A stretch of DNA of 64,000 bases. It comes from Gammaproteobacteria bacterium. Its GTDB lineage: Bacteria > Pseudomonadota > Gammaproteobacteria > Pseudomonadales > Halieaceae. The notes beneath the pieces were generated by a model. That model was not told the DNA's origin. It saw nothing but the letters and a program-made list of their open reading frames with translations, and did no database searches. The position numbers were made by a program, and so were the translations under genes. Positions 13,192 through 54,157 of this stretch are shown here, in pieces. The DNA is taken from the NCBI GenBank assembly GCA_024742415.1, contig JANSYN010000008.1:1-64000 (forward strand), in the 5' to 3' direction. Within the stretch, counting starts at the first letter, position 1, and each line of letters begins with the position of its first letter.

Positions 13192-13231
13192 AAACAAAAA
13201 AGGGCCGCCAAATGGCGACCCTTTTTTGTTT
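13192..13231. terminator. Bidirectional intrinsic terminator of ssrA
   Basis: The sequence is a near-perfect inverted repeat. AACAAAAAAGGG.CGCC pairs with GGCG.CCCTTTTTTGTT around a short loop, giving T-runs on both strands. It follows the CCA end of ssrA directly on the minus strand and also separates ssrA from the IS. Confidence 0.88.
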
Positions 13232-13621
13232 GGTGGAGGCGGCGGGACTTGAACCCGCGTCCGCCAGTACTCTGCCTTAGGCTCTACATGCTTAGACCCC
13301 GTTGATTAATCTAACCGCACACAGCCCAACGGGCAGGACGTGGTTGGCGATCCCCGTAATTAATTTAGCAACTCGGCCCAGGGCGTGCTTCGTTGCGATC
13401 CAGTTCTATATGACAGTCAGTAACGCGGGGCTGGAACCTTGTTAAAGACCGCTAGGGCCGAAGCCACTAGAAGGTGTCTATGACTGCTTACGCAGCCAGT
13501 TGAGCACCGTAGTTGTCGTCGTTGGCAACTAATAGTTTGCAGCTTTGGATTAACGTGATTCGCTACCATCACGGCATGCACCTGAAGGGTTCGCAACCGT
13601 CGTCGAATCCAGATCGCCCCC
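13231..13621 (-). ncRNA. ssrA: tmRNA (trans-translation RNA)
   Basis: The 391-base RNA begins GGGGGCGAUCUGGAUUCGAC and ends CGCCUCCACCA; the 7-base acceptor stem pairs fully with one G-U. The T-arm reads GGUUCAAGUCCCGCC. The resume codon GCC opens the tag reading frame around 13490-13530, giving (A)NDDNYGAQLAA then UAA, a typical gammaproteobacterial degradation tag. It rescues stalled ribosomes with SmpB, encoded nearby. The downstream side of ssrA is a classic integration site for islands, which fits the neighbouring defence cluster. Confidence 0.97.
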
Positions 13622-18892: not shown

Positions 18893-18964
18893 CAGGCGGT
18901 CACCCATCAGGCAGTCACCCATCAGGCAGTCACCCATCAGGCAGTGACCCATCAGGCGTTTCCC
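18893..18964. repeat. 15-base tandem repeat downstream of recN
   Basis: The unit CAGGCAGTCACCCAT occurs four times head to tail (18893, 18908, 18923, 18938) with one or two changes, plus a partial fifth copy at 18953. Two more degenerate CAGGCGGT-type pieces lie just before, around 18849-18900. The array ends 14 bases past the recN stop, between the convergent fur and recN genes. It is a plain minisatellite by appearance; no open frame is convincing. Confidence 0.8.
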
Positions 18965-38262: not shown

Positions 38263-41200
38263 TCAGGCATAAGGCTCAATACGCTCGTCAACAATCCTGA
38301 TCACAACAGCGCTGTCGGAACCCTCAGTTACACGTGCCTCGCCACCAAACTCCGCAAGCAGCGCCAGCAATGTTGCCGCGCCGGAACCGTGGGCCGGATG
38401 CACAAAAAGATCGGGTGGTAATCCCGCTCCACTATCGCCGACGTACAGCTCATACACATAGGCGCCGGTGTCTACTTCCCTGCTTTCAGTGATCTGCAGG
38501 CGGATATAGTTGGCATGTGACTCTGGAGAGAAAGCGTGCTGTACACAGTTGTCCAGCAGTTCATAAAGTACCACGGCCAGAACTGAACATACCGGCGCCG
38601 GAATCAGCGCTCCAGAGATCTCATTTATCGTAATAACAGTGTCGGCATCGGTCGGTGAGCTTTCCAGCAGGTCTGCCAGCGCCAGCTCAGAGAACTTTCT
38701 GACATCGCCCGACGGCCCTCCAGCGCCGTAGAACATGCAGCTCTCCATGAGCGTCAGCGCACTTAGAACTCGTTGACTGGACCTGGAGCTGCCACTTTGC
38801 GAGCCAACAAGTTCGGAGGCCTCGGCGGCGGTAACACCCAATGCAGCTTTTACTAACCCCAACGTATCAACTTTATGCGTATACGCGGTTTGCAGTAACT
38901 CATCCTGGAACTCGAGCTGTTCCTGCATCTCGTCCTCAGCCTGCTCGGCGGTGTCATCCATCTCTTGAGCGAGTACCGCGATTTTTCGCTCGATCAAATA
39001 GCTTTGATACGTCCTATGGGCCGCCCAGAGCGCAAGCAATCCCGCGAGTGTATAGAGCATATGAGCCCACCAGCTACGCCACGGTGGAGGAAAAACCTTC
39101 ACTGGCAAGGCGAGACCAGTATCGTCCCAAATGCCCGCAGCGTTTGCACCCACAGCTCGCAAAGTATAATTGCCCGCCGGAAGGTTGGTATAAGTTGCGG
39201 AGTTTCGAAAACCAATATCACGCCACTTAGGATCAAAGCCTTCGAGCTTATAGCGAAACTGATTCTCCTGGTAACCGATAAAGTCATCCACACTAAACTC
39301 GAACGTTACAAAGTGATCGTAATGAGATATCTCGACAGTCTTCTCTTCTTGCGGTGGGAGTATGTTGACGTAGCTTTTGTCGGGGAAATGGATTGAGCTT
39401 AGGATTGTATTGGGTGGGGTTAGGTCTAGCTCTATGTCGTCGGGGTGGAATTTTATGTAACTATTGATTGCCCCGAAGAACATTTCACCGTTATCCGACT
39501 TCAAAGAACTTGCCCAGCTAAACTCGCCTCCAGTTAGGCTGCCAGCATCTGACAACCTGCTTAGGCTAGATCCTTCCCTCTCCAGTTTAAAGAGCTCTCG
39601 AGGGGTTGTTAACCACAAGTTGTCAGAATCATCTAGTTGCATGTCTAGGATTGTTGCTTGGTTAAGACTGTTTGCCCCTGATGATCTTCTGAGTAGAAAT
39701 TTTCTCTGGAGCCGGTCTTCTGCCGTCCACATAAACAAGCCGTTGTGTTCAGTAGCAATCCAGATATCGTTAGTGTTTGACTCAATGATTGATAGTATTC
39801 GGATGGGTTCTCCATCGGCATTACTAAACATGATTTTTGTGAAGCTTTCTGTTTGCCTGTCGAATAAGTACGCATCATCAAAATTTGCGAACACCATATC
39901 ACCATTTTCTGCAGCAAAAATTTTTAGTAGCTGCTTCTCTCCGAGCCTGCCGCTTCTTAAGAATGACTCAATGCTTTCGGATTTTAGTCGATAGAGCCCA
40001 TTGTTATACGTGGCTACCCAAAGTTCTTCATATCGATCAACATACTCGATATCTGGAATTTCAAAATAGTCGGAACCTGGAATTTCTATAGCCTCAAATC
40101 TACCATTCCATGGCAAGTATTTCTGAAGCTTTCCTCGGACTGGTGCAATCCATATGATCTCTCCATCCTGAACTGCGATTGAGGCAACGCGTTGATCTGT
40201 TAATCCCTGCATGCCTAGATGGTCTGTCGTACCTCCTATGCGCGTGTGAACGTCTTTCTCTGTATCGTACAGAAACAAGCCTGAGTGGCTTGCTATCCAG
40301 ATATTACCGATCTTGTCTTGCTCGATCTTTGAAACATAATTTTGTTTGGAGTTGCTTGTAACGGTTCTAGCTGTAAAACCACTAAATATGTATTGCTGGA
40401 GTCCACTATAGGTCCCTCCTATGGCCCCAGACTTGTTCTCGAGTAGCGAGTACACAATATCTGATGAAACTTCACCCTCAGAGTTTTTAACGAGGACAAT
40501 TTCTGACAAATCATGACTGGCCCAGTGTAGACCTCCGTCGCTACCAATGAGAATTCCGTCTTCAATAAAAAGAATGCTATGAATATCAATTACTTGTTGC
40601 TGGCTAAGTCTAGTAACAGCCACTATCTTGAGGGTTGATTGTTCGATCAATGCAATGTGCCCGGTGTCTGTTCCGACAAGGTAAAGTTGGTTGTCTAGAG
40701 GATGAATTACAGAGATTTTTGGTGCCAGATCTGATTCAAAGTCAGGCAGTTCTCGCTCAGAAAATTCCATTGTTTTTTTATCAAGCACAAGTAGGCTGCT
40801 GCCTGTAACTAGTACAAGCCTTTGAAGCGCGTCCTGAGCGAACGCTAGTATCGTCTGGTTCGGAATGCCCGCGGATGGTAATCCCTCTCCGAAGGACCAT
40901 CTTTTTACGAAGTTGAGATTGGAGTCCAGCAAGATAAGCTGCTGATCACTTCCTATCCACACGTCCCCGTTCGTGGATGAGTGCACAAACTTTATAAATC
41001 GCATTCGCCAATTTCCGAACGAGGCGACTACATCGAATTCCTGAAACGAAGTGTTCCATACCAGGAGTAATCCGTTTCCAGTGCCTGCCAATAACCTGCC
41101 TTTCGGGCCCTCTGTAATGTCGAGAACTTGCTTTATTGCAAGATGCCTTGACCCAGTTTCCGAAGGTCCATAGCTTATAGTCTTGGCACCATCATATTTG

Positions 41201-41433
41201 TGAAGAGCGTCTTGACTTGCTATCCAAAGAAACCCATTGCTGTCGCGATAGAGTTCGCGAATTACACTTCTTTCCAGTATGGGAGGGAGATCTACGAAAG
41301 TCTTTACGGGCGTGTTGGCTCCGAGACTAGCCGAAGATGCACTTACGAGAATTGCTAAACACAGTGTGAGGGCAACATTATCTAGTCTTGTCAGATATGG
41401 CAATCTACCACCTCGAGCGATGTCGCGAGTCAA
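38263..41433 (-). CDS. Beta-propeller sensor protein with GHKL kinase-like C-terminus
   Basis: The 1056-residue protein has a signal/anchor (VALTLCLAILVSASSASLGA). It then has about 12-14 two-component propeller repeats in the periplasm (GFLWIASQDALHKYDG, DIWIATEHNGLFMW), a Y_Y_Y domain (FRYKLEGFDPKWRDIG) and a TM helix (~785-805). The cytoplasmic part is a coiled coil and a HATPase with N box VLYELLDNCVQHAF, VGDSGAGLPPD and a Gly-rich lid. No classic H box (SHEIRTP or HHRVKNN) is seen; His in AYTHKVDTLG is the only candidate. Start is TTG. Base composition changes inside the gene near 39,400. Confidence 0.85.
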   Translation of the reverse strand: MTRDIARGGRLPYLTRLDNVALTLCLAILVSASSASLGANTPVKTFVDLPPILERSVIRELYRDSNGFLWIASQDALHKYDGAKTISYGPSETGSRHLAIKQVLDITEGPKGRLLAGTGNGLLLVWNTSFQEFDVVASFGNWRMRFIKFVHSSTNGDVWIGSDQQLILLDSNLNFVKRWSFGEGLPSAGIPNQTILAFAQDALQRLVLVTGSSLLVLDKKTMEFSERELPDFESDLAPKISVIHPLDNQLYLVGTDTGHIALIEQSTLKIVAVTRLSQQQVIDIHSILFIEDGILIGSDGGLHWASHDLSEIVLVKNSEGEVSSDIVYSLLENKSGAIGGTYSGLQQYIFSGFTARTVTSNSKQNYVSKIEQDKIGNIWIASHSGLFLYDTEKDVHTRIGGTTDHLGMQGLTDQRVASIAVQDGEIIWIAPVRGKLQKYLPWNGRFEAIEIPGSDYFEIPDIEYVDRYEELWVATYNNGLYRLKSESIESFLRSGRLGEKQLLKIFAAENGDMVFANFDDAYLFDRQTESFTKIMFSNADGEPIRILSIIESNTNDIWIATEHNGLFMWTAEDRLQRKFLLRRSSGANSLNQATILDMQLDDSDNLWLTTPRELFKLEREGSSLSRLSDAGSLTGGEFSWASSLKSDNGEMFFGAINSYIKFHPDDIELDLTPPNTILSSIHFPDKSYVNILPPQEEKTVEISHYDHFVTFEFSVDDFIGYQENQFRYKLEGFDPKWRDIGFRNSATYTNLPAGNYTLRAVGANAAGIWDDTGLALPVKVFPPPWRSWWAHMLYTLAGLLALWAAHRTYQSYLIERKIAVLAQEMDDTAEQAEDEMQEQLEFQDELLQTAYTHKVDTLGLVKAALGVTAAEASELVGSQSGSSRSSQRVLSALTLMESCMFYGAGGPSGDVRKFSELALADLLESSPTDADTVITINEISGALIPAPVCSVLAVVLYELLDNCVQHAFSPESHANYIRLQITESREVDTGAYVYELYVGDSGAGLPPDLFVHPAHGSGAATLLALLAEFGGEARVTEGSDSAVVIRIVDERIEPYA

Positions 41434-41505: not shown

Positions 41506-44500
41506 CTACTCAAGAAAGTTTTGAAAGATTGAAACGAACTCTTTGTAAGCCTCAGTGACCGAGTCAACTGCGTTGTTGTTCTCCGCGATATCACCGCATC
41601 TGCCAGCCATCTCAATTTCTGCCGTGATTTCGCGAACTCTCTCGGCTCCGATATTGGCGCTCATTGATTTTATTGCATGAGCTGTTCGGTAGAGACCGGT
41701 TGGGTCCTTATCGGCAATATTCACTGCGAGCTCTTTGAGTTTGTCATTCATCTGCTCTTGGTAACCAGCGAAAAGAATTGGGAGTAAGGGTTTCCCTGTC
41801 TGTCGTTCTACCTCGCGAATACTATCTATCGCCGACGAGTTAACCACTTCGGAGTTTACAGTTAGCTTCTCGATTTCTGGTTTTTTGTTACCCCAATCCG
41901 CCTTGAATTCATGCTTCGGCTCGAAATAGCTCGATACAGCCTTTTCGATGTCAGATAGTGCGAAAGGTTTGGTTACGTAGCCATTCATCCCGGAATCGAT
42001 GCACTTCTCCATATCTTTCTCATCAGAACCGGCTGTCAATGCAATGATCGGGGTCGGCTTTAGGTCTCGCTTCCTTTCATACATTCGAATAGTTTTCGTT
42101 GCTTCGTATCCATCTTTCAAAGGCATTTGACAGTCCATGAACACCAATGAGTAGCTTCTTTCGGCGTACATGTTTGCGGCATCGACTCCATTGCCAGCAA
42201 TGTCAACTGTTGCGCCAAGTATCTGCAACATTTCTCTGATGATTCGCTGATTTGTTTCCACGTCTTCAGCCACCAGTACGTGTTGATTGGCCAAAATCTT
42301 CGTCTCCACGGGCGCGGCCGTAGTAACTCTGTTGATGATGGGGTCCAGCGACGCTGTGAGCAACTCGATTAGTTGAGATGACATTATGGGCTTCGAAAGG
42401 TAAGACCAACCAGTTAAGATGCCCAGCGGGGACTCTTCGGACATAGGTATTAGCATTATTTTGGTTGATGCTTTCAAGCTTTCCACGTTATTGAGCTGCT
42501 GGCTATCAAACTCGCTTCTTCGGTAATCAAAGAAAACGATGTCGCTTGATGCAACTGTTGGATCTAGTTTGCTGACTGAATCTTTGTAAAAAGATCTCAC
42601 GCCAACCCGCTCCAAAAGCGCGGCCAACATAGAAAATGTGGATTCATGAGAAGAGATGATTAGTGCGCTAGCACCTGTAAACATTGGCCAGTTTTCGTTT
42701 CTATGGGTTGCTACAGGAAGGCTAACTGATACTTCAATGCGGGTGCCTTTGCCTGGACTGGAATCAACATTGATAGTGCCGCCCATTAGTTCTATGTAGT
42801 TGCGGGAAATGCTCAGCCCAAGGCCAGTACCACCATATTGTCTTGTAGTGCTGGTATCTGCTTGAGTGAAAGGCTCAAACACTCGATTCTGTGTGTCTTT
42901 GTCCATCCCTATGCCGTCGTCCTCCACCGAAATCGTTATTCTGCTGCTGTTAGAGCCCCCGTCCAAAGGCCCGGAGGAAATGCGCACGTTCACGTCGCCG
43001 TCATGTGTGAATTTAATGGCGTTACTGACGAGATTCATCACGACTTGGCGAAGTTTAGTTGGGTCTCCAATTACTTCGGCAGGTATTTCTGGGCCACAGA
43101 TATGATTGAGTTGCAAACCTTTACGTGCAGCGGGTTCGCTCTGTAAGTAGCAGATGTCTTCGACTAAATCTTGTAGATCGAACTTGACGGATTCCAGCTC
43201 GACCTTTGATGCCTCAATTTTAGAAAAGTCCAATATTTCATTTATGAGGCCAAGAAGCGACTCGCCGCTTTTGTGGGCGGCTTTAGCAAATTGTTGTTGT
43301 TGGCTGGTGAGATTTGTGTGTAGAAGTAGCTCGGTCATTCCTATAATACCGTGCATGGGAGTTCGAATTTCATGACTCATGGTGGCAAGAAAATTGGACT
43401 TTGCTTGTGTCGCCTGCTCGGCCTCTTTTCTAGCAATGTCTAAGTCTCGAGTGCGTTCCTCTACTCGAAGCTCTAGCTCTCTTTTTATTTCCTCGGCTCG
43501 AATCGCTTTACGCCTTTGGTTGTGAAAGTAATAGGCGATAAGCGTCGCGGCAATTATCAGATATAGGATATAGGCTGGCGTGCTTTGCCATGGGGGTGGG
43601 GCCACAACTATTGGTATGCTGCGACCATCCCAGTTCCATGTTCCATCTGGACTGGCTGCAGCAAGCTTGAGGGTATATTTTCCTGGCGGTAATGTGGTGA
43701 AAGACGCTATCCGCGCGTCGGGCGAGATTACCCAATCTGGGTTTATACCTTCAAGCTTATAAGCATAGTTGAGAAGGTCGGGATTAATAAAGTCCGCAGC
43801 AAAGAACTCTACAGAGAGCATTCTGTCCTGATAACCTAAGTCTATCGATTTAAGCGAATGGTATGGTGAGTCGAATTCTCGGCGCTCGTTCATAACCTTG
43901 ATGCTTGAAATTGATACTTTTGGGGGGTCTCTCACTAAAGAAATTTTTTGAGGATTAATCGAATTGAAGCCTGCTATTCCGCCAAAGTATATGTTTCCGT
44001 TATCAGATCTTAGTGAGGCACCAAGGTTGAACTCGGCGGCTTGCAAGCCGTCTTGGACGCTATAGTGGTGAGATTCAAGATTTGATGGGTCAAGCCTAGT
44101 GATGCCTTTATTATGTGAAACCCACAACCAACCGGAGTCATCTGGCTGTATACCGTAAATGCTTGCACTGGGAAGGGATACATTTTCTGAAAAATGACTA
44201 AACTTGGGCTTTAGTAGTTTTCGATGTTCGACAAGCCATGCATTGAGTCCTCCTCCTTCAGTGCCGATCCAGAGGCTCTGTTTGGCATCCTCAGCGAAGC
44301 TCCACACGATCTTGCTGGAGAGCACATCCCCAACTTCGCCGCTTTCAGGGAACCTCTTAAACGTGAGCGTGTCTTCATCAAACAAGTTCAAGCCGTTTTC
44401 TGTCCCCAACCAAATGAATCCAAGAGAGTCTTCAAAGATTGCAAGAACGTTATTGCTACTAATCGAATCCGGATTGTTAATGTCGCTTTGAAAGTTCGTG

Positions 44501-45966
44501 AAGGTATTACTTTCTTCATCCAGTATTCCTATACCCCCTCCATAGGTACCCACCAGGAGTGCACCGCTAGATAGGCGCAGGATCGATGTGACGCCATTTG
44601 AACCGATTGTTGAGGGGTTGATGGGAGAGTGTCGGTAAACCACAGTTTCACCCGTACTCAAATCTAGCTTGTTTAGTCCGCCATCGTAGGTACCCACCCA
44701 CAGGTTGGTATTGTCACTGTATAGACTCATCACCACCCCGCTTGAAATTGAGGGAAGCGTAGACTCATTTATCCATTCAAAAGTCCTTGAGGTCGCTCGC
44801 AGCCGATTTAGTCCATCGTCTGTGCCTACCCAGAGACTGCCGTCTTCTGAGTACGCGAATGCGTTGACCGATTCGTTTGAGAGCTTTCCTTGTAGTGAAT
44901 TAAACTTCTGAAATTGTGCCTCAACTCCACTAACGAGAGCAGTCTGGGTGCCGATCCAGTAAATGTTGTCCCTGGATTGGCTGATGCTCTTGATGTTGTC
45001 ATGGGTTATGCCTGTGTTGTGGGTTGTAAATCTCAGAAATCCTTCGGATTCCGACCAGTATCTATTGAGGCCTTCCGTGGTTGCGACCCAGACGGCGCCC
45101 TCTCTGTCTACGAAGATGTCGGTGGTGCGGTTCGAGGAGATGGATTTAGTATCAGTAGGTGAATGGCGATAGTTCTTTGTAGTACCAGTATATGGGTTGA
45201 ATTTACTGATTCCATTTTCCTTAGAAGCTATCCATATTGATCCTGAGTGATCGATAGCCAGTTCCAACAAGCGCCCCCTCACTATTGAATTTGCGTTCTC
45301 AGGGTCATGTACGATTGAACGAACTACACCATTTTTACGATCAATCTCTACGAGGCCGCTGTTGTGGGTTGCCATCCAGATTCGACCATCACTTGTTTCC
45401 GCGAAATCTCTAACAGCTCCCATAAACGGTATGTTGTTATTTCCCGATATGAAATGGTGAAAACGTCCCGTTTCGGGGTCAAGGCTGCTATAGCCATTCA
45501 GGTATCCAACCCACAACTTGCCAGTGGAGTCTACAAAAAGAGAGTATATGTCATTGGAATACGGTGTGTTTGCGACATTTGGGTCGGCCGATGTCTTAAT
45601 GAATTGATGTTTGATCGAATCGTACATCGCTAAGCCGCCGCCAAGCGTAGAAACCCATAGCCTTCCTCCAGCATCTTCGGCCACTCGAGTGACGATGTTT
45701 GCAGGTAGTGAGGCTGGGTCCGAGGGGATATGACGGAATGTTTCCAGTTCGTGACCTGTGTATCTGTTAAGTCCTTCCTGTGTGACAAACCAGAGGGTGC
45801 CGGTGGAGTCCTGAAAAGTCTGTGTGACGGTTTGCTGAGTGAGTTGGTTGGTGAACGTAGCAGGATTTATCAGTAGTTCCAGCTGAGCGTTTTGCGCTGG
45901 AGTTGCGAAAACAGTAGACGCCACCAGCGGTAGAAACATTAGAACTGCGATCGCCCAGACTTTCAT
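41506..45966 (-). CDS. Beta-propeller hybrid sensor histidine kinase (HK-REC-HPt)
   Basis: The 1486-residue protein has a signal peptide, about 14 propeller repeats ([26 protein letters not shown]), a Y_Y_Y domain ([14 protein letters not shown], ~745) and a TM helix (~805). A coiled coil follows, then HisKA with H box [17 protein letters not shown] and HATPase ([32 protein letters not shown]). After these come a pseudo-receiver, a true receiver ([30 protein letters not shown]) and an HPt domain with His in [13 protein letters not shown]. All steps of a phosphorelay are thus in one chain. No response regulator with DNA-binding domain is adjacent. AT-richer than the core. Confidence 0.9.
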
Positions 45967-46210
45967 AGCAGAAACGCCAATAGTTTAGGCACTTAAGTCT
46001 ACAGAAGCACTAAACAGCTATCTAGAACAGTTGTTTGGGTATATAGAGATTTCTAAAGAAAAGTGTTTTGATCAGAAACACCAAAGCCACGCTAGGGAAG
46101 GCGGCCTAGCGTGGCCTCGTTGGCACCGAGCATACCGGTGCTAGACATCCTAGATTAGGGAGCGTGTGCGCGCCCTCATATCCGCAGAGTCATGCGCTGC
46201 TGGTCATCGC

Positions 46211-46753
46211 CTATCGGCGCCAAGCTCGGCCGGTTTGCTCAAAAGAGTTTGATCGCCAGCGGCTGCCAGTCTGCTCAGAGGTGTTAGATCTCCAGCGGCT
46301 GCCAGTCTGCTCAGAGGTGTTAGATCGCCAGCGGCTGCCAGTCTGCTCAGAGGTGTTAGACCTCCAGCGGCTGCCAGTCTGCTCAGAGGTGTTAGATCTC
46401 CAGCGGCTGCCAGTTTGCTCAGAGGTGTTAGACCTCCAACGACTGCCAGTCTGCTCCGAAGAACTAGAAGTGCTCCACTTATACCCGCTACGTGCCTTGC
46501 CCTCTGTAGCTGAGGTCGCCCAGGCCGACTTTGATGCGGTAGTGGGGGCTGATTCTTTCGCCCACTTGTTGCCGGAGTTCACAGTGCCTGTGTATTGCTG
46601 CGTGTTTGCCAGATTGTGGCTCACGCGGTGTACAACACTGCCAGGGTTGTCAGCTTTTGACTTAGCGGCTGTTTCAGCCAAAGTCGTGGGTGCTGATATA
46701 GCAAGCGCCAGGGTTGCTGCACTTACAAAGCCCACTCTCTTGAGAGTTTGCAT
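46211..46753 (-). CDS. Secreted small protein with six 12-residue TGSRWRSN repeats
   Basis: The 180-residue protein has a signal peptide (VGFVSAATLALAISA, cleavage near TLAE). A 75-residue region follows with single S/T-G-x-K/R-W motifs (SGNKWAKES, SGYKWSTSS). Six near-identical repeats SEQTGSRWRSNT and a final TGRAWRR complete it. I know no family. The repeats are basic and tryptophan-rich, suggesting binding to a polyanion, glycan or cell envelope, but that is a guess. ATG 46753 is chosen as it gives the signal peptide. The opposite strand is also open here but lacks a signal or start context. Confidence 0.65.
   Translation of the reverse strand: MQTLKRVGFVSAATLALAISAPTTLAETAAKSKADNPGSVVHRVSHNLANTQQYTGTVNSGNKWAKESAPTTASKSAWATSATEGKARSGYKWSTSSSSEQTGSRWRSNTSEQTGSRWRSNTSEQTGSRWRSNTSEQTGSRWRSNTSEQTGSRWRSNTSEQTGSRWRSNSFEQTGRAWRR
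46256..46471. repeat. 36-base tandem repeat array, six copies
   Basis: The unit starting CCAGCGGCTGCCAGTCTGCT recurs every 36 bases at 46256, 46292, 46328, 46364, 46400 and 46436. The first five copies are almost identical, differing mainly at GATC[T/G]/GACCT junction bases, and the sixth is more diverged. It is in frame with the 12-residue protein repeat, so copy number can change without frameshift. There are no spacers, so it is not a CRISPR. Confidence 0.92.
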
Positions 46754-47091
46754 GGTTAGTTCCTGCCTTCGTTTACATTGCCTGGCCACAAAATGTGACC
46801 AAGTTCTACTTCTGGCCCTTTGCGGAGGGCCTGGTGCGCATTCTTGTTGCACGATGCTTGACGTATTTATACGTGCAGGGGTAGGGGAATCATAGTCGCG
46901 TTCATACCCCGTTTGGGGCAGGAGGCAGGTTCTGAGTCTGCCAGCGGCAAGAGGGGGCGCCAGAAAGAGACGCTGATGCCGTTTGGAACAGTGTGATTAG
47001 ACACGATTTCAAGCGCCAGGAGGAGTGTTCGCCTGACCCGGAAGGGGTAGAAAGGAGCGCTGCCAGAGGCTGGAAGCAGTAGCCCGGGACG
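46754..47091. other. Gene-free stretch upstream of the repeat protein
   Basis: These 338 bases lie between the S8 protease stop and the start of the repeat protein, both on the minus strand. The part nearest the repeat gene should hold its promoter; a GTATAAAT-type AT patch sits around 46860-46872. The remainder is GC-rich with no convincing gene, hairpin or repeat. Confidence 0.5.
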
Positions 47092-49089
47092 CTAGAGGGG
47101 GTCGGCGGCCAGGCGCTCGATGCGGGCCTTTTCATCCAGGTAGATTTCGAGCCAGCCCCAGTTGAGGTCGTCTTCCGCCAAACTGTCAAGTTCAGCTTGA
47201 TCCAGGCGTTCAATATGTGCCTTGACGCCCCATCTGCGGGTTTCACTCATCCCTTTTTCAGTGGGCACTTTTGATATCAGCTCGCTCCAGCCTGGGAGCG
47301 TGGGGTTGCCCTGCTCATCGCTGATTACCGGCCCGTACAGCGCGCCTTCACCACGCAGGCTCGCCTGTAAGTCTTGTCCTGTCGAGCCGCAGTCGGTTTC
47401 TCCGAGAGTGATTGCCCGTAGTGCGCTGACATAGCCATAGCCCTGTGTGAACGGGCTGTATGCTAGGGTGCCGTCGGTATTGATGGCCGGCTCAGCGCTG
47501 CTTATCAGCAGGCATTTGATGGCTTCATTGCTGAGTTCAGGCTGGAGTTCGAGTAACAGGGCCACGATCCCGGAGACCATGGCAGCGGCCTGGGATGAGC
47601 CTGTGGAGACCAACTCGCCTGTGGGCAGCAGGTTTTCGGGGTCGCTGACTGCCAGGTCGGAATCCGGATGGGTTAGCCCGGTCATGTGGCCGCCAAGGGC
47701 TACGATGTCTGGTTTGACGTGGCCGGTCGGTGTTGGTCCGCGGGAGGAAAAGTCGGGAATGTAGTCATCACTGCGCGTTTCGGTGGTCCACGAATCTGTC
47801 ACGGCTCCCACGGTGATCACCGCGGGCGTATTGCCTGGTGAGCCTATGGTTGCCAACTCAGGGCCTTCATTATCGGCGGCAACGACAACCGTGATGCCGG
47901 CCGCCCAGGCCGCCATGGTGAGCTGCGCGACGGGGTCCTCCCAGTAGGGCCAGCGTGGCTGTTGTCCAAGTGAAATGTTGAGTACGCGAATGTCGTAAGT
48001 CTGCTGGTGATCAATGACCCACTGAATGGCATGTGCTATATCCAGCAGATGGGCCCTGCCAGGGCGATCCAGCACCTTTACAGCAACCAGGTTTACATCG
48101 GGCGCAACGCCTTTGAAGGTGCCGGTTGCCTTGCCTCGGAAAAGGGTTGGCCCACTGTGCGCGATAATGCTACTCATGTGGCTGCCGTGGCCGCTTTCAT
48201 CCACCACTTCCTGATCGAGTGCATGTGTGATGGCGTCGTACCGGGCCAGCACGCGCTGCTCACCGTTCGTATTGAGCATGAGTGCGGGGTGTTCCCATAG
48301 CCCGGAGTCGATGACCGCGACGGTCACGTTTTTGCCTGTCACGCCCTGGCGGTGCAACTCATCAATGCCCGCAACGGTGTTGTAGTAGTAGTCTTCGTCA
48401 TTACTTGGGTAGCCGGGCACCAGTTTGTCTGAGCAGTCGCCCACGAACTTTGCCTCTATTGTGAACTCCTTTTGCTGAGGTGGCGTTTTAGCGTCAGCCC
48501 TGGTGGTTGCGGGGGGGCTGCGGAACTTTACACGCAGATCAGAGCGTTCATGGATGGCATGGCCGTCCTTGGGCGCAAAAACGACCTCAATTGCCCCCGG
48601 CGTTTGCAGTGCGAGGGTTGCAGGCGGGAGCGGAATGTCATTCAGCGTGATTGCTTCGACAGTGCCCAGGCGCTCTGGCCACTTAAATTTGAGTGATTCC
48701 CATACAACGGGCGTGGTTTTCTTGTTGTAGATGGGCCAGAAGATGCCGTCCGGGCGGATATCGAGCTCGATCTGCCCCCGCACCTTGCACACCTCCCCAT
48801 CGTCGTCATCGGGATCGTCATCGCTCAGCGCCAGGTCATTGATATGCCCCGAAACAGCGCGCGATGCCAGCGCCAGGTCAAGTTGCGCTTGGGTAAGCGT
48901 GGCGCCGATGGCCGCAATGCTATGCAGGTCATGGGTGACAGTACCGCCGATGTCCTCAACCAGCCGCGTGAGTGTGGCGGAGGATTCACCGCGTAGTAAC
49001 ACATGGAGCGTTTCGTTGGGCTCGGGCGCGATAGGGGCACAGGCCCCCAGTGTCACGCTCAGCAGGAGGGTTGCGAGTCTGCCGGGCAT
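47092..49089 (-). CDS. S8-family (subtilisin-like) serine protease, lipoprotein
   Basis: The 665-residue protein has a lipoprotein signal with lipobox LGAC (Cys ~17). A ~220-residue N-terminal region contains a propeptide-like fold. The subtilase domain holds the catalytic triad: Asp in VAVIDSGLWEHP, His in ESGHGSHMSSI and Ser in STGSSQAAAMVSG. The Ser motif is GSSQAAA instead of GTSMAAP, an uncommon variant. A ~120-residue C-terminal tail follows. Likely envelope-anchored protease; substrate unknown. Confidence 0.88.
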   Translation of the reverse strand: MPGRLATLLLSVTLGACAPIAPEPNETLHVLLRGESSATLTRLVEDIGGTVTHDLHSIAAIGATLTQAQLDLALASRAVSGHINDLALSDDDPDDDDGEVCKVRGQIELDIRPDGIFWPIYNKKTTPVVWESLKFKWPERLGTVEAITLNDIPLPPATLALQTPGAIEVVFAPKDGHAIHERSDLRVKFRSPPATTRADAKTPPQQKEFTIEAKFVGDCSDKLVPGYPSNDEDYYYNTVAGIDELHRQGVTGKNVTVAVIDSGLWEHPALMLNTNGEQRVLARYDAITHALDQEVVDESGHGSHMSSIIAHSGPTLFRGKATGTFKGVAPDVNLVAVKVLDRPGRAHLLDIAHAIQWVIDHQQTYDIRVLNISLGQQPRWPYWEDPVAQLTMAAWAAGITVVVAADNEGPELATIGSPGNTPAVITVGAVTDSWTTETRSDDYIPDFSSRGPTPTGHVKPDIVALGGHMTGLTHPDSDLAVSDPENLLPTGELVSTGSSQAAAMVSGIVALLLELQPELSNEAIKCLLISSAEPAINTDGTLAYSPFTQGYGYVSALRAITLGETDCGSTGQDLQASLRGEGALYGPVISDEQGNPTLPGWSELISKVPTEKGMSETRRWGVKAHIERLDQAELDSLAEDDLNWGWLEIYLDEKARIERLAADPL

Positions 49090-49149: not shown

Positions 49150-50985
49150 TTAGTTGTCTACGACTTTTTTAAGGTGGTTTTGTACAACCCGTCCGATTTG
49201 CTCAGAAAAGTTCTCGTCAAGCATCAGCGGTACATCCTCCGGGTAAAGGGGGCGTGAAAAGTAAAAGCCCTGCAGCAGGTCACACTCATTGCGGACCAGG
49301 TAGGACAGATGCCTTTCGTTTTCGATGCCCTCCGCTATCACGCGAAGATTCAGGGTTTTGGCCAGCGCCAGAATGGCGTCGACGATCGCCGCGCCATCGG
49401 GGGTGTCCAGATCCGAAATGAAGCTCTGGTCAATCTTGAGGGTGTTGATCGGGAAGCGCTTGAGATAACTCAGCGACGAGTAACCGGTGCCGAAATCATC
49501 AACAGCCAGATCCACACCCAGGGCTTTGAGTTCGCGCAGCCTCGCAATATTGGTTTCTGCATCTGTCATGATGGCGCTTTCTGTCAGCTCCAACTCCAGG
49601 CGCTCTGCAGCCAACCCGGAGCGCGAGAGGAATTTTCCAATCCAGGCGGGAAGGTTGCGCTGGTTAAACTGCAGCGGCGAGATGTTCACGCAGACCCTGA
49701 AGGGCTTGAGGCCAAGATCGTCCCAGTACAGGCAATTGCGGGCGACCTCATCCATGACCCACTCGCCAAGTTCAATAATCTGCCCGGTGCTCTCCGCAAC
49801 CGGAATGAATTCAACAGGAGACACCATGCCCCGCGTGGGGTGTTTCCAGCGCACTAGCGCTTCCATGCTGACGACTTCGCCAGTGCGCGTGTCGATCTGC
49901 GGCTGGTAGCGCAATTCTAGTTCGTTATTGCGCAGCGCATCGCGCAATTCCTCTTCCATCTTGAGTTGCTCTACCGCCTTTGCGTTCATTTCTTCGTCGT
50001 AGAAGCGGTAACAGGCCCGACCCTCTGCCTTTGCGACATACATGGCGGTATCTGCGTTGCGAATCAGTGTGTCGGCGTCTGCGCCGTCCTGGGGGTACAG
50101 CGCGATACCAATGCTGGGTGTAACCACAGGGTTGTGTGACTGCAGCGGTATGGGTTCAGACAGGCTGGCCAGGATGCGCGCCGCGACTTTCTTTATGTGT
50201 GTGATGTCTGAAACGTCAGACAGCACTACCGTGAATTCATCGCCGCCCAGACGCGCGATTTCTGTGGCGTTGCCAACGTCTTCGTCATCCTCGGCACTGT
50301 TATCCGTGAAGTAATTGATGATGTCGTCTTCGCGCAGCTCATTGGTCAAGCGCTTGGCAATCTCAACCAGAAGCCGGTCGCCGCGAGCGTGGCCAATAGA
50401 ATCATTGATGCGCTTGAAGTGGTCCAGGTCGATGAACAGCAGGGCGGCTGAGCGTTTGTGGCGTTGCGCTCGTTTTAGAATGCGGTTCAGGTGTTCATTG
50501 AAACTGCGGCGGTTGGGCAGGCTCGTCAGTGGATCATAGTAGGCGAGGTAGCGCAGCCTGTCTTCCTGGCGCTTGAGCGAGTTGAAGGCATTGCTGGCGC
50601 GCAGCATGTACTGCACGTCGCGGCCGAGTAATGACCAGTTGACCGGCTTGGTCTTGTACTGCGTTGCGCCGGCCTCAAAGCCCTCGTCGATGGATTGGCG
50701 GTCATCCGAGCCTGTCACAATCATGATCGGAATGGATTCGCCCTGGGGCAGCTGGCGAATGCGTTGACAGGCTTCAAGGCCTGTCATGCCGGGCATTTCC
50801 ACGTCGAGAAAAACAAGGTCTGGCCGCTCGCGCACAAACATGTCGATGGCTTCAAGGCCGGTAGAGGCCTCAACAACGGTCATGCCTTCTGCTTCAAGAC
50901 ATTGTCTGGTGAGCAGACGAACATTCTGGTCATCATCGCAGACGAGAATCTTGGCCTGTTGCGTTGTTGAGTTGGGAGTGGCCAT
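49150..50985 (-). CDS. Response regulator with GGDEF and EAL domains
   Basis: The 611-residue cytoplasmic protein has a receiver (KILVCDDDQN, phospho-Asp in LVFLDVEMPG, Lys in YKTKPV), a diguanylate cyclase domain with RLGGDEF, and an EAL phosphodiesterase domain. All EAL metal and catalytic residues are visible (MEALVRW, VNISPLQ, ELTESAI, VDDFGTGYS, LKIDQSF, AEGIENE). Both enzymatic sites look intact and there is no RxxD inhibitory site before GGDEF. An insert in the GGDEF domain (FTDNSAEDDEDVGN) is unusual. ATG 50985 is preferred to TTG 50991. Confidence 0.92.
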   Translation of the reverse strand: MATPNSTTQQAKILVCDDDQNVRLLTRQCLEAEGMTVVEASTGLEAIDMFVRERPDLVFLDVEMPGMTGLEACQRIRQLPQGESIPIMIVTGSDDRQSIDEGFEAGATQYKTKPVNWSLLGRDVQYMLRASNAFNSLKRQEDRLRYLAYYDPLTSLPNRRSFNEHLNRILKRAQRHKRSAALLFIDLDHFKRINDSIGHARGDRLLVEIAKRLTNELREDDIINYFTDNSAEDDEDVGNATEIARLGGDEFTVVLSDVSDITHIKKVAARILASLSEPIPLQSHNPVVTPSIGIALYPQDGADADTLIRNADTAMYVAKAEGRACYRFYDEEMNAKAVEQLKMEEELRDALRNNELELRYQPQIDTRTGEVVSMEALVRWKHPTRGMVSPVEFIPVAESTGQIIELGEWVMDEVARNCLYWDDLGLKPFRVCVNISPLQFNQRNLPAWIGKFLSRSGLAAERLELELTESAIMTDAETNIARLRELKALGVDLAVDDFGTGYSSLSYLKRFPINTLKIDQSFISDLDTPDGAAIVDAILALAKTLNLRVIAEGIENERHLSYLVRNECDLLQGFYFSRPLYPEDVPLMLDENFSEQIGRVVQNHLKKVVDN

Positions 50986-51135
50986 TTGCAACCGTTTTTA
51001 ATACGAATTAGCAGCTTTGTAGGCTATCATTACTGCAGCCTTGCGCCTAGAGGGAATAACAACAATCAGCCGAAAATCAAAGGGTTGCGACGCTGTTCAC
51101 AGAGTTGCATATCATTGGGGGAATTAACCGGGGCG

Positions 51136-52450: not shown

Positions 52451-54157
52451 TCAGGAAAAAACCGGCTCGCGGCGCTTCAGACCCTGCTCTCGAACAAAGC
52501 GCGGCAACTGTTGCAGCGGGATCGCCGGACTATAGTAAAACCCCTGGACCTGCTGGCACTGGTGATCACGCAGAAACTCTATCTGTTCGTGCGTTTCGGC
52601 ACCCTCTGCTACCACCAGCATACCCAGCCTGCGGCCCATCTCGATAATCATGGTGCACACGGCTTCCTGATGCTCATTGTGAGGCAGGTCGCGCACAAAG
52701 CAGGCATCAATCTTCAGGGCTGAAATTGGCAGTTCGGTAAGGTGTGACAGCTGCGAAAATCCTGTACCGAAATCGTCGAGTGAGAATGAGATCCCCAGTT
52801 CGCGAAGTTCGTTCATGCGGTCCTTGATGGAGTCTGTACTTTTCAGAATGGTCGACTCTGTGAGCTCAAACTCCAATCGGGAGGCATCTGCACCGCTGCG
52901 CGTGATGATGTCTTTGACGATGTCGACAAAACGGTCCTCCTGAATCTGCGAGAACGAAATGTTCACCGCAACATCAACGTTTTGCATGCGCTGTTTGGCC
53001 AGCCACGCCTGTGCGTTACACGCATGTTGAATCACCTGGTAGCCGATGGTGCGCATGAGGCCCATATCTTCACAGGCGGCGATGAATTCGCCCGGATAAA
53101 CAATGCCGCGCTCCGGGTGATTCCAGCGCAATAGCGCCTCGAGGCCTACCAGGTGCCCAGTGGGAAGGTCTACCCTGGGCTGGTAATGCAGCTCAAACTG
53201 ATTTTTACGCACCGCTGAGCGCAGCTCTGCCGACAGGGACGTGTTGCCTGTGATGTCAAATGCCAGCTTTTCCGAGTAGCGAATGTAGCGTCCGCCATTC
53301 ATGCTCTTGGCCTGTTGCATGGCACTGCGCGCATGCTCCACGAGATCGGGAAACTCGCTGCCATCCTCAGGATAGATCGCGGCTCCGATACTGGCCTCTA
53401 CCGCAACCTGCTGATCACTGAGAATCATTGGTGCCGAAATTGAGCGCAGCATTTTCTGTGCGATGGTTTCTACATCGTCTACTGAGCTGACATCTTCCAG
53501 TACCACGGCAAATTCGTCACCACCCAGACGCGCAATACTGTCGGAGCTGCGCAGCTTGTTGATCAGCCGACGTGATATCGACTTGATCATGATGTCCCCG
53601 TCGGCCTCACCGTAGTGGTCATTGATATTGGCGAACTGGTCAATGTTGATGTAAAGCAGGGCGGTATTGAAGCCATAGCGTTCAGAGCGACCCATGGCGC
53701 GCTCCAGGTGGGCGCGAAAACCTACCCGGTTGAGGGCGCCGGTCAATGAATCCCGGTTCGACAGCTGCTGTATTTTCTCGCGCGCCTTTTTCAATTGAAT
53801 ACTGTAGTCCAGCACGCGGTGCACCAGGGCATCGGGTAACTCGCCGCGGATCAGGTAGTCCTGCGCGCCAAGTTCCCTGAGTGAGGCCGCCTTGTGCTCA
53901 TCCGACTCATCAATTAGCAAAATGAGCGGAGAGGTCGCCTCATGTTTGCTGGCCAGGCGCAGCAAGTATTCGGTCTCGGGGCCGTAAGCCATGATGACGG
54001 CATCTATCATGGGGTCCAGCAGGGCCTCAACAGGCCGATCGAAGGATTCAGCAGCCGCCAGGCTGAAACGCGCCGGGACCGCGCGCTCCAGCGAGGCGCG
54101 GAGCACCAGATGGTCCGCCTTGTTCTCAGATATGATCAGTACAGTCTGCTGTTCCAC
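52451..54157 (-). CDS. Pseudo-receiver GGDEF-EAL protein
   Basis: The 568-residue protein starts with a receiver fold in which the phospho-Asp position is Ala (AVIMAYGP) and the acidic pair is replaced (SENKAD), so it should not be phosphorylated. A GGDEF domain (RLGGDEFAVV) and an EAL domain follow, the latter with all key residues (LEALLRW, VNISFSQ, ELTESTI, LDDFGTGFS, LKIDACF, AEGAETH). It is expected to act mainly as c-di-GMP phosphodiesterase. Start GTG at 54157. It is convergent with the membrane GGDEF gene. Confidence 0.9.
   Translation of the reverse strand: MEQQTVLIISENKADHLVLRASLERAVPARFSLAAAESFDRPVEALLDPMIDAVIMAYGPETEYLLRLASKHEATSPLILLIDESDEHKAASLRELGAQDYLIRGELPDALVHRVLDYSIQLKKAREKIQQLSNRDSLTGALNRVGFRAHLERAMGRSERYGFNTALLYINIDQFANINDHYGEADGDIMIKSISRRLINKLRSSDSIARLGGDEFAVVLEDVSSVDDVETIAQKMLRSISAPMILSDQQVAVEASIGAAIYPEDGSEFPDLVEHARSAMQQAKSMNGGRYIRYSEKLAFDITGNTSLSAELRSAVRKNQFELHYQPRVDLPTGHLVGLEALLRWNHPERGIVYPGEFIAACEDMGLMRTIGYQVIQHACNAQAWLAKQRMQNVDVAVNISFSQIQEDRFVDIVKDIITRSGADASRLEFELTESTILKSTDSIKDRMNELRELGISFSLDDFGTGFSQLSHLTELPISALKIDACFVRDLPHNEHQEAVCTMIIEMGRRLGMLVVAEGAETHEQIEFLRDHQCQQVQGFYYSPAIPLQQLPRFVREQGLKRREPVFS

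Follow-up and report, generated by a model that had tools for sequence, protein, structure and literature searches.

The window, as we call the whole stretch of 64,000 nucleotides of Halieaceae DNA analysed here, holds a small gene whose protein ends in a tandem array of Trp-containing peptides. The features of the locus are as follows.

46211..46753, minus strand: gene of the Trp-repeat protein, 180 aa, with its stop codon at 46211-46213
46676..46753, minus strand: Sec-type signal peptide, residues 1-26, judged by eye; N-termini of relatives are similar
46466..46675, minus strand: spacer, residues 27-96, with a VHRVSHxLA motif and degenerate W motifs (W64, W78, W93)
46214..46465, minus strand: array of seven 12-residue units, residues 97-180, up to the protein C-terminus
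46082..46119, minus strand: terminator-like stem-loop of 15 bp that separates the repeat gene from the kinase gene, the longest stem of three such sites
47092..49089, minus strand: S8 subtilase, 665 aa, with an I9-like prodomain and a catalytic domain
47206..47238, minus strand: conserved C-terminal subtilase motif RRWGVKAHIER, like the unit core [KR]WG[IV][KR]
49150..50991, minus strand: response regulator-GGDEF-EAL (RR-GGDEF-EAL) protein, 613 aa, directly upstream of the subtilase
52451..54157, minus strand: second GGDEF-EAL protein, upstream (gene cluster c0, which occurs twice in many relatives)
41506..45966, minus strand: hybrid histidine kinase, 1486 aa, with a Reg_prop/Y_Y_Y propeller sensor, HisKA, HATPase, receiver and Hpt
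38263..41433, minus strand: second Reg_prop/Y_Y_Y sensor with HATPase, 1056 aa

The Trp-repeat protein begins with MQTLKRVGFVSAATLALAISAPTTLA, which reads by eye as a Sec signal peptide and so bears out the claim of the first-pass annotation that the protein is secreted. That annotation had also described several S/T-G-x-K/R-W motifs and six near-identical 12-residue repeats encoded by a 36-base array. All of this is confirmed: the degenerate W64, W78 and W93 are present, and they are followed by six near-perfect copies of TGSRWRSNTSEQ and a variant last unit, NSFEQTGRAWRR. The Trp residues of the array are W106, W118, W130, W142, W154, W166 and W178. The spacer motif, VHRVSHNLA in the window, is common to many relatives and absent from some. 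Tandem Repeats Finder gives the 36-base array (46229-46456) 6.3 copies, 91% matches and a score of 365, the top of the window's four tandem-repeat rows; the runner-up scores 116. Another tandem repeat of the window lies at 18893-18957 (15-base period, 4.3 copies, 96% matches), and a tmRNA gene is found at 13231-13621 on the minus strand (Rfam RF00023). AF2 with 25 family members returned a mean pLDDT of 48.7, a pTM of 0.14 and no secondary structure, so the array is predicted to be disordered.

The repeat gene may be its own transcription unit because the terminator-like stem at 46082-46119 comes after it. This site stands out by stem length only, three such sites being found against 2.8 expected in shuffles. 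A promoter scan found none, with 1.2 expected.

A conserved neighbourhood in the Halieaceae

The repeat family was found in 24 of the 57 genomes searched, the window's own included, and the best match in each other genome is 32-64% identical. It is present in 14 of 18 genomes of the window's genus (13 of the 17 others plus its own) and in 10 of 18 from other Halieaceae genera, and in none of the 21 genomes from other families of the order. The Trp-repeat gene is a conserved gene, and its family has no name. As the first-pass annotation had it, the protein is of no known family: neither Pfam, NCBIfam nor PADLOC has a model that credibly covers the family. None of the matches to Sarcoglycan_2, HTH_AraC, Lysostaphin_N and a model of a hydratase involves more than 4 of 25 members, and all were judged artefacts of repeats or composition. 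Lysostaphin_N matches 2 of the 25 (best E 6.7e-07) and was judged to follow the period only. The N-terminal repeats of lysostaphin have a period of 13 residues; the likeness is a 13-residue period in a secreted protein, whereas no peptidase domain is among the Pfam matches of the window protein. A search of PDB sequences gave two weak matches (E 0.031 and 0.42), and a collection scan queried with the repeat protein gave none.

The neighbouring subtilase matches Peptidase_S8 (PF00082, E 3.5e-50), and its catalytic D261, H301 and S499 are invariant in 17 aligned rows. Its N-terminus looks lipoprotein-like by eye in the window species. A fold search matched it to pro-subtilisins (pro-subtilisin E, 3whi, and ProN-Tk-SP, 3afg), with which it has the catalytic fold and the prodomain in common. 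In contrast to these, the clade of the window subtilase has an additional C-terminal Trp motif or repeat array and is linked to propeller sensors. The window subtilase also matches the PADLOC 'subtilase' and IetS models, as an S8 protein may; an anti-phage role was considered for it. A profile of its N-domain matches 86 of 140 genomes of the family (64 of the 78 good ones) and only 2 of 274 in a scan of the class, the window's own being one of the two. In one locus, L091 (G100), the subtilase reads as several ORFs.

The tail of the subtilase carries a motif that resembles an array unit. By pattern it is found in 70 of 71 tails, a count that omits nine loci, and the sole miss (L028) is cut within the motif by the 60-residue tail length used. 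Three residues after the Trp, the 70 WG tetrads have K in 59, R in one and A, G, S or T in ten. The motif may be a leftover array unit. In L085 and L090 a second unit-like motif (GYQWG, NYQWD) follows RKWGVKAHIER. The secondary structure of the subtilase model gives no sign of the motif in the active site.

Could the array be there to control the protease? Acting in trans as a substrate-like inhibitor, chaperone or decoy, its units would occupy the subtilase active site. The tight linkage of the two genes and the unit-like motif in the protease's own tail would both suit this idea. However, the protease model already has a pro-subtilisin-like prodomain, and the link with sensors is left unexplained, so this role seems very improbable to us.

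The first-pass annotation placed the gene between sensor kinases and a protease. This holds, with Reg_prop kinases downstream and the S8 subtilase upstream, and the arrangement is conserved in relatives. We compared 21 loci, the window and 20 relatives chosen for having the repeat gene, with RR-GGDEF-EAL linkage read by tblastn. All 21 have the S8 subtilase gene. All 21 also carry the RR-GGDEF-EAL gene upstream, in the orientation of the subtilase, with 13-129 bases between its end and the subtilase match; in the 20 relatives its protein is 74-90% identical to the window's. In 13 of the 21 loci, L031 among them being cut by a contig end, the kinase's sensor has a match some 1.0-1.4 kb past the subtilase; the second sensor gene matches in 12. 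In the window this second sensor has HATPase_c, and neither HisKA nor a receiver, among its Pfam matches. It has a below-cutoff match to the NCBIfam PorZ model; PorZ, a non-sensor of like fold, is described as binding A-LPS (PMC8545088).

Another 59 loci were read via the subtilase. In 39 of them the array could be measured, three of these (G003, G011, G033) being already known from the repeat-gene search, and 12 of the other 20 are cut short by the end of the contig, either ahead of the array or inside it (L076, L084, L087, L088, L097, L100, L103, L114, L116, L122, L127, L128). The remaining ones are four fused loci (L110, L124, L125, L126), two with a short or degenerate gene (L113, L121), L119 (G153), where the repeat gene is in a broken frame, and L081 (G018). 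This last is an exception, a subtilase with an enoyl-CoA hydratase gene adjoining it and no array gene, in a genome without a kinase match. Subtilase matches in G102, G114, G117, G118, G131 and G146 fall outside the locus set.

The window's kinase sensor is matched in 67 of 140 Halieaceae genomes, of which 64 also have the subtilase, 49 of them within 8 kb. Within the window's genus the sensor is found in 12 of 18 genomes, and in eight of these it is on another contig than the subtilase. In G001, G004, G005, G013 and G016 the region after the subtilase has no kinase match and the kinase is elsewhere in the genome; in G003, G008 and G010 the subtilase contig is cut and the kinase is on a different one. 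A genome search of G017 did not find the sensor. Among 78 good Halieaceae genomes, 52 have both genes, 12 the subtilase only, 2 the kinase only and 12 neither (Fisher p 3.9e-6, from a hand-drawn table that ignores shared descent). Of 74 Halieaceae loci with a separate array gene (the trans form), 44 have a Reg_prop-like ORF by motif count, as do 39 of the 48 that are at least 10 kb long. Nine long trans loci have no propeller gene nearby; L029 and L031 are cut by a contig end and seven others are not. It is well supported that the array, the subtilase, the propeller sensor and the c-di-GMP enzymes form one gene module.

Array units and how they vary

Arrays were measured in 60 of 80 loci, 21 picked for the repeat gene and 59 picked by the subtilase. 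Eleven of the 60 run off a contig end (for example L079, L083, L089 and L105), so their copy number and downstream genes are lost. Those that end in a stop codon have 3 to 21 units between species, with one genome per species; L072 is undercounted because one of its units has no Trp.

The units are held alike by more than fresh duplication. Between neighbouring units of the 60 arrays there are 1508.7 synonymous differences over 3497.5 sites and 1105.3 nonsynonymous differences over 12792.5 sites, a pN/pS of 0.20. Synonymous sites are near saturation in several species, with pS of 0.93-0.98 in L112, L115 and L078, while the peptides still agree, and from this we take it that purifying selection maintains the likeness. 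The first-pass annotation had read the near-identical DNA copies of the window as recent expansion. That reading is right only in part: the units are indeed alike there, but a pS of 0.40 against a pN of 0.05 in the window's own array indicates that selection keeps the likeness. The differences between units fall on codon positions 1, 2 and 3 of the minus frame in the numbers 538, 454 and 1622 in the 60 arrays, and therefore the minus frame is the coding frame. This pattern disfavours expression of the opposite strand only, which the first-pass annotation had named as a finding that would count against it. The antisense ORF at 46164-46895 (243 aa) was rejected as a gene because unit differences lie mostly at the third position of minus-strand codons.

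Units that are uniform within an array differ between species. A unit is 95% identical to its own array's consensus, and the consensus 13-mers of different arrays are 53% identical; the 60 arrays have 54 distinct consensus units. In 57 consensus 13-mers, position 5 is Q in 56, position 9 is K or R in 56 and position 11 is G in 47. The first unit of each longer array was omitted from the consensus, and W was the anchor, so the invariance of W is by construction. The last residue, position 13, is R in 47 of the 57 and otherwise K, N, S, G or Q. In the window the unit has 12 residues, contains WRSN and ends in S. Since the end residue varies and the window's unit ends in S, no single strict cleavage signal is evident.

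The place where the protein stops is nearly constant. Of 49 complete genes, 47 have their stop codon two to three residues past the final Trp, the exceptions being L091 and L111; this spacing was also used to set the register of the units. With the protein end fixed at this point, cuts there in every unit would therefore give equal peptides.

A structural or adhesive repeat protein of the surface or matrix is the idea that the first-pass annotation had raised. Such a protein, sticky with Trp, Tyr and Arg and possibly beta-rich on assembly, would be regulated by c-di-GMP and trimmed by the protease. The signal peptide, the repeats, the variable copy number and the adjacent c-di-GMP genes all fit. 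However, complete arrays of only three units exist, AF2 predicts disorder (a weak test for assemblies), and the link with propeller sensors is left unexplained. The profile matches of the family include no adhesin, curli or amyloid family, and no curlin model is among the Pfam matches of 25 members at E up to 0.1. We consider this idea distinctly unlikely. The word ligand in 'surface or matrix ligand' does agree with the explanation that we prefer, which is itself a tentative proposal.

Subtilases with fused arrays

The nearest subtilases with no array gene beside them, which come from relatives outside the Halieaceae and from two Halieaceae genera, carry the array fused to their own C-terminus (the cis form). 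All 18 cis subtilases read have C-terminal aromatic repeats, 16 of them with Trp; close kin among the 18 loci are L124/L126, L185-L187 and L190/L191. The tails are diverse: GYLWSG in Anaerolineales, GYLWGN in an Acidobacteriota bin, GYLWSN in Woeseiaceae, ALIWRLNFETD in Colwellia sp. TT2012, NYAWAR in Steroidobacteraceae and GVVWNNERAQPSNPVAE in G774, among others. Three genomes of genus g8 have SYFFND, which has no Trp, or SFVWND, and the tail of G185 is loose, with scattered GDPWGGGY. In G022 the subtilase at L110:10194-13175 has a C-terminus made of 56 copies of GNYWNA and sits between Reg_prop sensor genes; these copies have at least 12 synonymous DNA versions. The repeat-tailed clade is rare outside the Halieaceae. 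At E 1e-70 it was met in 3 others among 369 genomes of the class, and a scan of the phylum found 1 other among 299, again in the same class.

The link with propeller sensors extends to the cis form. By motif count 14 of 18 cis loci have a Reg_prop-like ORF (12 of the 14 that are at least 10 kb), against 0 of 15 loci of distant S8 proteins (0 of 11 at least 10 kb), these controls coming from other lineages, where sensors of this kind are possibly less frequent. In 11 cis loci, L110 and ten further cis neighbours, Reg_prop and Y_Y_Y are confirmed by Pfam. Beside repeat-tailed subtilases the propeller is fused to GGDEF in L184, L189 and L193 and to GGDEF-EAL in L219; in L188 and L220 it occurs together with a kinase and with an RR-GGDEF-EAL gene. 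L189 and L217 come from the same contig, and Halieaceae loci met twice were counted once. The Anaerolineales loci have arrays, and no propeller sensor was seen in them. Two of their contigs (L186, L187) carry two neighbouring repeat-tailed subtilase genes, with no propeller sensor seen nearby.

In a tree of 49 catalytic domains all 23 trans forms fall in one clade (support 99/100). It is nested in a larger clade that takes in both cis and trans forms (100/99) and excludes eight distant S8 proteins. There is no resolved order among the cis lineages, and several outgroup branches are long. The simplest reading of the tree would be that a fused array split off once to become a separate gene; the reverse direction, from separate gene to fused array, would be less simple.

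The fused arrays bear on the idea that the units are freed as multi-core RiPPs or secreted antimicrobial peptides by the subtilase. Cationic Trp units in the window and in many relatives, differing from species to species, would be expected of such peptides. However, several cis arrays (GYLWSG, GNYWNA) have no charge, the signal is of the Sec type, and no modifying enzyme was seen on reading through the conserved neighbour clusters. We would give this idea hardly any chance.

What the array may do

Our preferred reading is that the Trp-repeat protein may be the ligand, in multiple copies, of an extracytoplasmic signalling module, a tentative view that we hold at somewhat less than even confidence. 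Sec would export the protein, and its disordered tail would present several near-identical peptides of 12-13 residues. The neighbouring subtilase would cut the tail into unit peptides, each after the unit's last residue, or would trim it. The unit peptides would bind the Reg_prop beta-propeller/Y_Y_Y sensor, which would use a phosphorelay to reach the RR-GGDEF-EAL protein and thereby c-di-GMP; we infer the direction of this response as we do the steps before it. The cis form would do the same with the array fused to the subtilase, and sometimes with the propeller fused straight to GGDEF. The array is read as a propeller ligand cut by the subtilase because of the signal peptide, the predicted disorder, the selected identity of the units, their species specificity and the fixed end of the protein. 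That the subtilase releases the peptides and the propeller senses them is likewise possible, in our view, without being probable.

Several observations stand against this reading, the variable end residue of the unit among them. Cis arrays such as the 56 copies of GNYWNA contain no basic residue, and the protein continues beyond them. The 7 of 48 long Halieaceae loci without a propeller gene nearby, the five genomes of the window's genus in which the kinase is elsewhere, G017 in which the search did not find it, the G018 subtilase with neither array gene nor kinase match, and the Anaerolineales arrays with no propeller seen all count in the same direction. Against a peptide as the ligand, the Reg_prop/Y_Y_Y sensors of the literature sense oligosaccharides (PMC3243724), and the similarly folded PorZ binds A-LPS (PMC8545088).

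Since the end residue of the unit varies and certain cis arrays offer no evident place for a cut, display of the uncut array is a serious rival, even if we think it unlikely. Here the array would be a multivalent ligand or tether whose Trp motifs dock on the propeller, and the protease would end the signal by removing it; the cis form would hold the protease at the sensor, and the trans form would be a separate linker. This accounts for the same linkage of array, subtilase, propeller sensor and c-di-GMP genes. It leaves copy number free to vary, with cis arrays of up to 56 copies, and it suits the one unit-like motif kept in the subtilase tail. It does not explain why 47 of 49 trans proteins share a common stop point within the unit.

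Fungi have Kex2-processed repeat proteins (KEPs), which include the yeast alpha-factor precursors (PMC7329392), and Kex2 is a protease of the subtilisin family (PMC2515848). KEPs are the known system closest to the working plan proposed here. The likeness lies in a signal peptide (by eye in the window protein), tandem near-identical short peptides and units that are diverse between species. Unlike KEPs, the window system is bacterial, its protease is encoded next door and its processing is conjectural; we claim no homology. There is no general dibasic site between units, dibasic ends being found only in some species of the window's genus, and because of this we do not class the repeat protein as a KEP. 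On the sensor side, the HTCS of Bacteroides with Reg_prop/Y_Y_Y sensors sense complex oligosaccharides and are found in polysaccharide loci (PMC3243724). The window kinase is like them in having Reg_prop, Y_Y_Y, HisKA, HATPase and receiver in one protein, but the genes that accompany it encode a subtilase, a Trp-repeat array and c-di-GMP enzymes.

A wider proposal is one that we put forward with slightly more doubt than the preferred reading. The module might be a bacterial counterpart of the prohormone or alpha-factor scheme, with a secreted precursor that has many copies of a species-specific Trp peptide, a dedicated subtilase that frees them and a propeller receptor that turns their level into c-di-GMP, plus a more widely distributed form in which precursor and protease are fused. 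We found no description of the gene pair or module by title or abstract start in the open-access literature, with few subscription journals covered. Halieaceae are described as abundant in coastal seawater (PMC10100682), and the main text of that genomic study does not contain the terms subtilase, c-di-GMP or two-component.

If the signalling reading is true, it would give propeller sensors of the Reg_prop type a concrete ligand, a peptide, away from the glycan setting and would tie extracellular proteolysis to c-di-GMP. A multi-copy peptide precursor would be added for the Gram-negative bacteria, and bacterial production and sensing of peptide signals would gain a route not described before. 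Should the signalling step fall away, this work still defines an unnamed and apparently secreted family through much of the Halieaceae. That family is tied to a clade of subtilases with repeat tails that reaches from the Gammaproteobacteria to the Chloroflexota and Acidobacteriota.
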